DNA from: Isosphaeraceae bacterium
GTDB lineage: Bacteria > Planctomycetota > Planctomycetia > Isosphaerales > Isosphaeraceae
NCBI GenBank assembly: GCA_025356475.1
Contig: JANXSX010000068.1
Coordinates: forward strand, 1-64,000
DNA length: 64,000 bases
Direction: 5' to 3'
In this document: positions 53,968-56,528 of the stretch, one piece after another
Layout: each line of letters opens with the position of its first letter
Position numbering within the stretch: the first letter of the stretch is position 1
The notes under the pieces: generated by a model
The model's database searches: none
Told to the model about the DNA's origin: nothing
The model's input: only the letters and a program-made list of their open reading frames with translations
Position numbers and translations under genes: made by a program

Positions 53968-54120
53968 TTACGAATGACGCGTTAGCGTTCAGAGTCCTTG
54001 TAACCGGGACGCACAGTGGGTCGAGTACGGATGATCGTCCTTATCGTATGGCTGTGAGTCTGGTCCACGCCTGTGACCCACGAGAAACACAAACGAAACC
54101 CACACACTCGCTCGCTCGCG

Positions 54121-54355
54121 ACCAAACCAACCCATTGGCAAGATGTAGAGATTATTCGAGGGCGGAACTTCTCATTCGACTCCACTACGAAACGAACCCA
54201 ATGGTATGATATGACGGTTATGACGGCAAATGCTCGGACAAGTGGCAAGGAACCGAACGAACCCATTAGTATTCTGTGACGATTGCAAGGGAGACGTATC
54301 TTCAACCGTCTCCACTACGAAACGAACCCAATGGTATGATGTGACGATTATGACG
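54121..54355 (+). repeat. Four copies of a ~65-bp direct repeat unit
   Basis: Copies begin near 54121, 54187, 54252 and 54317, 65-66 bases apart. Copies 2 and 4 share a 45-base stretch (54181-54225, 54311-54355) with only two differences, including ACGAAACGAACCCAATGG. Copies 1 and 3 are diverged but keep the AACCCATT core and the position of the GATGTGACGATT-like end. No gene reads through them. The function is unknown; the regular spacing is not CRISPR-like, as the spacers are not unique 30-40-base inserts. Confidence 0.75.
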
Positions 54356-54667
54356 AAATGGCAGATTCGCAGGGCGTAGTGACGGAAGCGTTCGACCCCA
54401 GTCCAGGCAATTGACTCACGGCTCCGTCACAACCCCCTCCTTGATGGAGAGGAAGAGGTTGATGTGATGGTTTGGCCTTTAATACTAGTTCACCTCCGAG
54501 CAGGCCGGAACTAGGCGAGCACCCTGGAGCTACGCCTGGTTCCTCGGCCCGGAAGCGAAAATAAGACCGACCTTGAGGAGTTGACCTTGCAGATCGCTGC
54601 CCCATATCCCACAATAAGATCCTCATCTGAGCCAATCGTATTGATTGCCGTTTGGACGAAACGGGAG
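54356..54667. other. Intergenic region ahead of the SRP RNA gene
   Basis: No gene is visible in this stretch between the direct repeats and the SRP RNA gene. The one clear structure is the hairpin at 54503-54549, listed separately. Minus-strand frames here are of poor protein character, and I see no convincing promoter for the SRP RNA gene. Confidence 0.4.
54503..54549. other. Long intergenic hairpin
   Basis: GGAACTAGGCG (54507-54517) pairs with CGCCTGGTTCC (54533-54543), with one wobble, and an outer GGCC/GGCC pair extends it across a bulge. It lies about 120 bases before the SRP RNA gene. It may be a terminator for upstream transcription or part of a small RNA. No T-run follows. Confidence 0.4.
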
Positions 54668-54800
54668 TGGGGTCTGAGGTGAGCCGGGGGGGACCCGGGC
54701 AATGGGGGCTTGTGAACCTGGTCAGGGTGGGAACACAGCAGCCATAAGCATCGCTTTCATGTGCCCGGGAGAACCTCCCCGGCTCACCACAGGCCCCACT
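54668..54800 (+). ncRNA. ffs: Signal recognition particle RNA (4.5S/SRP small type)
   Basis: The conserved SRP domain IV core is present: GGTCAGGGTGGGAACACAGCAGCC, in pieces GTCAGG, the GGAA tetraloop and AGCAGCC, at about 54720-54743. Flanking strands pair over a long helix: CCCGGGCA with TGCCCGGG, GTGAGCCGGGG with CCCCGGCTCAC, and TGGGG with CCCCA at the ends. The RNA scaffolds Ffh in membrane-protein targeting. Its place just before dnaX-ybaB-recR matches the scr-dnaX-yaaK-recR order known from Bacillus. Exact ends are estimated from the pairing. Confidence 0.93.
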
Positions 54801-54848
54801 TTCCACCCGTCACTCGATTTTCCGATGCAACTTTCGGGATGGAGTGGG

Positions 54849-56528
54849 ATGGTGGCGAGGATGAAGACTAACTCGGCTGAGCCTGAAGCCGCCGCGAATC
54901 CAGGTGCCGGGTATACCGTTGTTGCCCGCCGATATCGGCCCCAACGGTTCGAGGACGTGGTCGGTCAAGACCATGTCGTCACCGCGCTTCGGAACGCAAT
55001 CCGCCTCAATCGAGTCACTCACGCCTACCTCTTCAGTGGGACCCGAGGGGTCGGCAAGACGTCGCTCGCCCGGATCTTTGCGAAGGCTCTGAACTGTGTC
55101 AAAGGCCCCACAGAAAACCCATGCGGGGTCTGTGATATTTGCCAGTCGATCGCGGTTGGCCAAGATGTCGATGTGATCGAAATCGACGGTGCCAGCAACA
55201 ACGGTGTCGAGGCGGTCCGAGAACTCCGCCAGAACGCCGGCCTCCGCCCAAGCCGGGCTCGCTTCAAGATCTACTATATCGACGAAGTTCATATGCTCTC
55301 GACTGGGGCGTTCAACGCCTTACTCAAGACACTCGAAGAGCCCCCTGAACACGTCAAGTTCTTCTTCGCGACCACCGAGTCGAACAAGATCCCCATCACC
55401 GTTCTCTCACGCTGTCAGCGCTATGATCTGGCCGGAATCGCCCCCGAGCAGATTGCCGCAACCCTGGCCGAGATCTGCACTAAGGAACACGTCGAAGTCG
55501 ATCCCGACGCCATCGCCGTTGTCGCACGTCGAGCAAATGGTTCGATGCGAGATGCGCAGTCCTTGCTCGAACAACTCCTCTCGTCGGGAAGCACAAAGCT
55601 CACCGTTGAGGCTGTTCATGCGTTGCTCGGCACGGCCAGCGACGAGCGAATGCTCGAGCTCCTGGATGCACTCGCGAATCGGAACCCTCAAGGGGCTTTG
55701 ATGTTGCTCGATCAGGCCGTCAACAGCGGAGTCCAGCCCACGGATCTACTCAACGGCTGCCTGGAATTCCTCCGCGACGCAATGGTTCTCTCGGTAGGTG
55801 CATCCGGACCACTCCTTGCGACCACCCCCCGCCAGCTCCCGCGTCTGAAGGCCATTCATGAGAGCTGGCCAACCGACTCGATCCTTGCCGCGCTCCAGAT
55901 ATTGGCCGAAGCGCGGGCCCGCCTCCGAGGGAGCCCACACGGACGAATCCTCGTTGAGATGGCGCTGGTGAAAGTCGCCCGGCTAGAGAATCTGACGGAC
56001 CTTGCCGACCTTGTCGCACGACTGGCCGCCGTCGAGGGGTCGGGGCCTCCTGTCGAAAAAAAAAAGTTCCTTGAGCGGCCCCGGACCCAAATAGAACCAA
56101 CCGACGACTCGCCTCTACCCGCAAAACCCGCCCACCATCCGCTCGAACTATCGGAAGTCCTTCTCAATTGGGAGCGGCTCTGCGGCAAACTCGGGATCTT
56201 GCTGGGGGGCAAGTTCAACCTGGTCCGGCCCGACCAGATGCTTGGGCCAAGCCTCTTACGCGTGCCGGTCAGCCCGCGCTATCACGAGGTAGCCGATGCC
56301 TATGAAAACGGAGACACTAAAGAGCGGATCGAAGTTGTCGCTCGCGAGATGTTCGGCCATGGGTTCGGCCTCCAGTTCGTCAAGATGACGGAAGCCGAGC
56401 CTGTGATCGCCCGAACCGTAAGTTCTGCAGGCCCCTGGCAGGACGACCAGATGATCAAAGACATGGTCAAGCTCTTTGATATCAAACAAGTTCGGATCGA
56501 ACTTGCTCCGATGGAAAGCACGCCTTGA
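54849..56528 (+). CDS. dnaX: DNA polymerase III subunits tau and gamma
   Basis: Clamp-loader ATPase of about 559 residues. VARRYRPQRFEDVVGQDHV, the P-loop GTRGVGKTSLARI, the zinc-Cys set (CVKGPTENPCGVCDICQ), IDEVHMLS and the VLSRCQRYD sensor are all present, followed by the tau C-terminal domain. I start at ATG 54849 because the longer frame from 54702 runs through the SRP RNA; ATG 54825 and ATG 54861 are alternatives. An A10 run at 56056-56065 could give the shorter gamma form by slippage. ybaB and recR follow. Confidence 0.95.
   Translation: MVARMKTNSAEPEAAANPGAGYTVVARRYRPQRFEDVVGQDHVVTALRNAIRLNRVTHAYLFSGTRGVGKTSLARIFAKALNCVKGPTENPCGVCDICQSIAVGQDVDVIEIDGASNNGVEAVRELRQNAGLRPSRARFKIYYIDEVHMLSTGAFNALLKTLEEPPEHVKFFFATTESNKIPITVLSRCQRYDLAGIAPEQIAATLAEICTKEHVEVDPDAIAVVARRANGSMRDAQSLLEQLLSSGSTKLTVEAVHALLGTASDERMLELLDALANRNPQGALMLLDQAVNSGVQPTDLLNGCLEFLRDAMVLSVGASGPLLATTPRQLPRLKAIHESWPTDSILAALQILAEARARLRGSPHGRILVEMALVKVARLENLTDLADLVARLAAVEGSGPPVEKKKFLERPRTQIEPTDDSPLPAKPAHHPLELSEVLLNWERLCGKLGILLGGKFNLVRPDQMLGPSLLRVPVSPRYHEVADAYENGDTKERIEVVAREMFGHGFGLQFVKMTEAEPVIARTVSSAGPWQDDQMIKDMVKLFDIKQVRIELAPMESTP
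56056..56074 (+). promoter_or_regulatory. Programmed slippage site in dnaX
   Basis: A run of ten A residues (56056-56065) followed by G contains the heptamer AAAAAAG in the reading frame. A -1 shift meets TGA at 56072-56074 after two codons, giving a protein of about 408 residues; the other frame meets TAG at 56092-56094. Both would yield a gamma-like product. Either ribosomal frameshifting (as in E. coli) or transcriptional slippage (as in Thermus) could act. Confidence 0.7.

Follow-up and report, generated by a model that had tools for sequence, protein, structure and literature searches.

What does a block of four direct repeats do in the chromosome of an Isosphaeraceae bacterium, when it encodes no convincing protein and lies beside the SRP RNA gene? 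The block lies in the 64,000-nucleotide stretch of DNA analysed here (the window), where a sequence-only reading had proposed a tandemly duplicated functional or mobile unit, possibly a protein-binding array or a member of a scattered repeat family. We find that the repeat is dispersed through its own genome, that its core recurs in several phyla and that it is linked to a family of multi-copy genes, named STGP here, at whose 3' ends it lies. We put the chance that the window holds a gene-less array of recognition sites for a TerS-like STGP protein at about one in two.

The array in the window and in its own genome

The features of the element and its neighbours are as follows.

About 54111–54358, + strand: whole repeat element, a gene-less solo array (pairwise blastn among array loci, array print-out)
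54125–54136, + strand: core of unit 1, a degenerate 'cap', AACCAACCCATT
54183–54220, + strand: extended conserved part of the unit, CTACGAAACGAACCCAATGGTATNNTGTNNCGATTATGA (alignment of 24 own-genome units)
54191–54202, + strand: core of unit 2, exact AACGAACCCAAT
54256–54267, + strand: core of unit 3, AACGAACCCATT
54321–54332, + strand: core of unit 4, exact AACGAACCCAAT
54686–54783, + strand: neighbour outside the element, bacterial small SRP RNA (Rfam RF00169, 62.8 bits)
54702–56528, + strand: neighbour outside the element, dnaX open reading frame (Pfam DNA_pol3_delta2/gamma3)

All four units were confirmed: their 12-nt cores begin at 54125, 54191, 54256 and 54321, which gives start-to-start spacings of 66, 65 and 65, in agreement with the period of about 65 bases given by the sequence-only reading. 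Its figure of 43 identical bases in 45 between two copies did not hold, as 38/45 were counted at its own unit starts; the best two copies (54172–54225 and 54302–54355) are identical at 49 of 54 positions, ungapped. The copies align far better than shuffled sequence, the best values from 200 dinucleotide shuffles being 29/54 and 18/29 against 49/54 and 25/29 observed, while Tandem Repeats Finder did not flag the array because its units are too diverged. The bounds of the element mark how far it resembles homologous arrays at other loci of its genome, and in the alignment of 24 own-genome units the CTACGAAACGAACCCAATGGTATNNTGTNNCGATTATGA part is followed on its 3' side by a faster-changing spacer of ~27 nt.

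The array is flanked on one side by a DUF1559/N-methylation gene and a small lipoprotein-like open reading frame, and on the other by the SRP RNA; the placement beside the SRP RNA (54686–54783) had been recognised correctly, but the supposed decayed surface-protein end is not supported, the upstream DUF1559 gene being intact. The true start of dnaX probably lies near 54834, downstream of the SRP RNA. We agree that the array is not protein-coding in the usual sense, and that it is not CRISPR-like, since its spacers are common to different loci. Neither an STGP gene nor a remnant of one was found near the array, upstream of it or elsewhere in the window, and the array is therefore a solo one.

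Searched at the DNA level, the assembly to which the window belongs (G000; 5.9 Mb, 232 contigs) revealed about ten further arrays of the same build together with isolated copies, so that the suspicion of a genome-wide scattered repeat family proved right. The exact 12-mer AACGAACCCAAT occurs 45 times in this assembly and its reversed control not at all. In most of the arrays the first unit is a variant cap, usually ACGAAGCCATTGGCAAGATGTAG, and the later units often alternate between two types of 64 and 65 nt. Most isolated copies fit a longer motif, C-N-R-AACGAACCCAAT-Y, including at positions that had played no part in finding them. The copy number is probably a minimum, several of the arrays being located at the end of a contig. 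A second conserved intergenic module, itself partly duplicated, lies at -330 to -10 upstream of several of the arrays (L035, L036, L037, L038) and is absent ahead of the array in the window.

The core motif in other genomes

The unit thus recurs in its own genome, and its core also recurs in other phyla. A scan over 84,980 species genomes turned up arrays of the core C-N-R-AACRAACCCAAT-Y, strictly same-strand, in further Planctomycetota as well as in Acidobacteriota, Sumerlaeota and Zixibacteria. Among the matches listed, most belong to Planctomycetota (Paludisphaera, Gemmataceae-labelled genomes, Sedimentisphaerales and Phycisphaerae) and Acidobacteriota (Bryobacterales and Solibacteraceae), with fewer in some Sumerlaeota and Zixibacteria and in isolated metagenome-assembled genomes (MAGs) elsewhere; many of the matching genomes are MAGs, and single odd taxa may therefore be contamination. 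Within the class of the host, tandem copies were present in 10 of 198 sampled genomes, all 10 in the host family. The highest count per genome was 567 variant copies (G471); G485 has 174, G490 has 144 and G472 has 143, with reversed controls of 0 throughout. None of 116 adjacent copy pairs was of mixed orientation, and the complete genome G040 contains no multi-copy locus of mixed orientation. Across phyla a core of 15–17 nt is kept. The spacers that separate the cores show no relationship, or are homologous and have drifted, and vary from 20 to 80 nt (neighbour spacing in G471 is 31–98 nt).

In a related genome, a near-perfect tandem array of the core with a 24-bp period (G020:C1:3705940-3706071) represents a recent homogenised expansion, and an array in a Zixibacteria MAG (L154) alternates units of 99 and 51 nt, the long spacer holding a strong hairpin, GTCAGGTC...GACCTGAC. 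Array matches outside the main phyla occur in a Marmoricola MAG (L166), which also has the gene, and a Stellaceae MAG (L106); these could reflect horizontal transfer or binning contamination.

Several explanations for the arrangement of the motif were tried and rejected. A phage-borne array is contradicted by 0 tandem matches among 2.9 million IMG/VR contigs, and replication-strand polarity of the Chi/KOPS-like kind was not detected in the complete genome G040 (p 0.68). Helical phasing appeared in a first set of spacings, which peaked at ~10-nt steps, and was unsupported in a further set from G471 (p 0.18); spacing in G474 favours ~9.4 nt and is dominated by 50–52-nt units.

A gene family with the motif at its 3' end

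In an acidobacterial genome (G488) the motif recurs at constant distances within a multi-copy gene for a protein of 211 amino acids, and also at the end of this gene. The protein has no Pfam or NCBIfam match, and relatives of it turned up in 18 of the 21 genomes tested, frequently with many per genome (61 in G490, 31 in G488 and 19 in the window's own genome). They constitute the STGP family, which has the consensus MATEAQIxANRxNAQKSTGPRTxEGKAxSxxNALKHGLxA followed by a helical middle and a disordered C-terminus. In three genomes all 41 gene–motif pairs within 3 kb, taken from hand-typed lists, are on the same strand with the motif 3' of the gene's N-terminus. A coding-strand copy of the motif is carried by 27 of 31 distinct complete STGP genes, either inside the gene, mostly towards its end, or downstream of the stop codon. 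It is absent from the 600-nt 5' flank of 45 STGP-family or TerS genes. The 35 in-gene copies, several of which are in paralogues, are distributed over the three reading frames as 14, 11 and 10, and one gene reads the motif both as TNPI and as QTQF. Since the copies occupy all three frames, conservation acts on the nucleic acid, which points to selection at that level. A coding repeat was rejected because the unit is not a whole number of codons long and the in-gene copies use all frames.

The link extends to the window itself, for three STGP genes of the same genome carry the window's own unit, matching outside the 12-mer as well, 20–61 nt past their stop codons: at stop +55 with 94% identity over 33 nt (contig C204), at stop +61 with resemblance to the cap unit (C87) and at stop +20 (C214). 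Gene tails in this genome carry single units, whereas solo arrays have 4–6. Most arrays in the fetched loci have no STGP gene within ~8 kb. Array units in one genome share lineage-specific extensions with the gene-linked sites of that genome. Two IMG/VR contigs classed as viral (L320:4001-4711 and L321:4001-5443) carry a chromosomal-type gene with the motif at stop +10 and near the 3' end, and may be prophages or host DNA.

The gene was detected in 35 of 45 host-family genomes, and at least 5 copies of the motif were present in 19 of these 35 compared to none of the 10 gene-less genomes (Fisher p 0.002, kinship ignored). Several genomes (G007, G023, G002) have many STGP genes and few motif copies; in the host family, motif abundance therefore seems to require the gene, but the gene does not suffice for it. 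Among about 151 genomes of the class from other families, 11 have the gene, with motif counts at background. In G007, G023 and G002, the 3' ends of the genes (L280-L297) carry only the degenerate forms AGCGAACCCATT and ACCGAACCCAAG, possibly a diverged site.

The N-terminal block of the family is shared with phage terminase small subunits (TerS). It is present in 29 IMG/VR proteins; five of nine such relatives tested match PHROG models of the terminase small subunit (PHROG 9231, 1889 and 509), and a terminase large subunit (TerL) follows the phage relatives L322, L331 and L339. Alignment of the chromosomal and phage sets with hhalign gave a probability of 98.8 and an E-value of 5.9e-17 over 40 columns with 48% identity. 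The similarity is confined to the ~40 N-terminal residues, the remaining helical part being unaligned. The fold expected of a TerS is helical and ring-forming, with an N-terminal DNA-binding domain. The structure predicted here is helical and of low confidence (pLDDT 64), and structure-library searches with this model returned coiled-coil or helical-hairpin matches only, with no TerS among them. Judged by these profile matches, STGP proteins are relatives of the subunit with which phage packaging motors recognise DNA. A role in anti-phage defence was rejected, as PADLOC gave no match.

Several STGP-type genes of the Bryobacterales genome G490 adjoin terminase large-subunit genes outside any visible prophage, and these copies carry no array. 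Four of the loci (L355, L356, L357, L359) have no other phage genes within 5–7 kb and are surrounded by host genes such as a sucC-like gene; in L357 the terminase ATPase and nuclease parts are on separate open reading frames. These loci are possible mobile terminase cassettes. The window's own genome has one TerL match, on contig C75, where no STGP-family gene is listed.

Proposed recognition sites, known systems and competing explanations

A protein-binding array, as the sequence-only reading had suggested, is still the best mechanism, and binding, like any packaging or mobility of the STGP arrays, is inferred. Each unit would be a putative recognition site for an STGP protein, which would bind the 3' end of its own gene and orphan arrays elsewhere; arrays would lengthen as units are duplicated in tandem, the spacers drifting afterwards while the site is retained. 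Against this model stand the short extent of the TerS similarity, the low-confidence structure that matches no TerS, the genomes with many genes and few motif copies, and the position of most arrays away from any STGP gene. The array in the window is thus probably a stand-alone landing site for an STGP-type protein and not junk. This model has parallels in phage TerS, whose presumed pac site lies within or beside the TerS gene, and in RAYT genes, which are paired with dispersed REP sequences (PMC2817692, PMC3116915).

Intergenic repeats scattered over a genome, and repeats that go with a gene, have precedents. The system resembles REP/REPIN-RAYT pairs: in both, a multi-copy intergenic repeat tracks in abundance a chromosomal partner gene that bears a copy of it, and solo repeats and clusters are spread over the genome. 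The dependence of repeat abundance on the cognate gene, by which REP/RAYT systems are judged, is seen here in the host family. However, REPs are GC-rich imperfect palindromes with a GTAG/CGTC-type head, whereas 24 own-genome units of the STGP motif have no conserved hairpin; RAYTs are Y1 (IS200/IS605-type)/HUH tyrosine transposases, whereas Pfam has no Y1 model matching 11 STGP members; and a RAYT gene lies between two inverted REPs, whereas the STGP motif runs in one direction only, around the stop codon. As palindrome, Y1 transposase and repeats on both flanks all failed, we do not file the system as REP/RAYT. It also differs in that the motif is found only at the gene 3' end, often inside the coding sequence, and that one core is common to several phyla.

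The pac sites of phages P22 (a 22-bp asymmetric sequence; PMC9611059) and SPP1 (direct repeats; PMC4737164) lie in or next to the TerS gene. The STGP motif is likewise an asymmetric sequence of ~20 bp, or directly repeated, in or next to the gene of its presumed recogniser, and the STGP N-terminal block is common to phage TerS. A phage genome has one pac site, however, while the STGP motif has tens to hundreds of chromosomal copies; it is located at the gene 3' end, the genes are mostly without terminase large-subunit or capsid genes, and any packaging role is putative. The TAACTGA repeats of Beggiatoaceae, Cyanobacteria and Bacteroidetes are, in the part of their description drawn on here (PMC4679880), also short and directly repeated, with numerous intergenic sets and a scattered occurrence among distant lineages, and so set a precedent for intergenic direct repeats that cross lineages; they are heptamers for which that part names no carrier gene family, compared to the 15–17-nt STGP-linked core. 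CRISPR arrays share regular repeats with spacers, but the STGP repeat is short and degenerate, its spacers are variable in length, and homologous A/B spacers recur at separate loci within a genome. No precedent for the pairing of a one-directional, non-palindromic core with the 3' ends of TerS-block genes, in several phyla, was found in Pfam, NCBIfam, PHROGs, Rfam, PADLOC or PDB sequence. Searches of the open-access literature, which are weak evidence of absence, found neither the motif as a bacterial repeat, nor orphan or domesticated terminases of the STGP kind, nor such repeats in Isosphaeraceae.

Other accounts of the array must be weighed against recognition by an STGP protein. It may be a non-autonomous mobile repeat (REP/MITE-like), with the motif as an end or target of transposition and the STGP gene as mobiliser or passenger; its high dispersed copy number, the multi-copy genes, the sporadic spread across phyla among the matches listed and the extensions that array units share with gene-linked sites of one genome would all be expected of such an element. 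We regard this as doubtful given that terminal inverted repeats are missing, that the 5' flanks of the 45 genes are free of the motif and that none of the STGP proteins tested has a transposase domain, although mobility and recognition sites are compatible readings. Action on RNA, with the motif as an unstructured binding or processing signal at the messenger 3' end and solo arrays as transcribed sponges or relics, would fit the strict orientation relative to the gene and the 3' position. It is unlikely in view of array z-scores within chance (+1.5 on the + strand, -0.25 on the - strand), a mean z of -0.24 over 229 units, 0 covarying pairs in 24 own-genome units, and Rfam, which matches nothing in the window except the SRP RNA.

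The RNA structure prediction proposed by the sequence-only reading accordingly gave no structure beyond chance, and a structured RNA was rejected on the missing Rfam match for the array, the z-scores near zero and the lack of covariation; hairpin units were also rejected, clear inverted repeats being present in a few spacers (L136, L101) and not general. There is, finally, little likelihood that the array is a functionless neutral satellite or a set of decayed STGP gene tails, even though spacers drift freely, several own-genome arrays sit at the ends of contigs in the manner of amplifying repeats, and some gene-bearing genomes are without the motif. The core is kept between phyla despite unrelated spacers, in all three frames inside genes and as isolated sites, which implies selection, and the contrast between single units in gene tails and 4–6 units in solo arrays of this genome also speaks against this account.

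Recognition by an STGP protein can also be given a far-reaching form, which we consider quite improbable, in which STGP genes and arrays constitute a chromosomal, self-spreading pac-like system. TerS-like proteins would mark dispersed arrays in host DNA, stand-alone or phage/GTA-supplied terminase large subunits would cut, mobilise or package the marked DNA, and the capsid-less terminase cassettes of the Bryobacterales genome G490 would be its autonomous version.

The analysis ties a high-copy motif, present in several phyla of bacteria, to a multi-copy and hitherto unnamed gene family with the N-terminal block of phage TerS, and indicates that the motif is translated into the C-termini of predicted STGP proteins, where it appears as TNPI, NEPN and RTQ strings. 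If the STGP protein binds the motif, gene and repeat would be partners of a kind that REP/RAYT does not cover, and the protein possibly a DNA-recognition module domesticated from a packaging motor. The link between gene and motif gives tests for how such repeats spread and for the marking of DNA for transfer.
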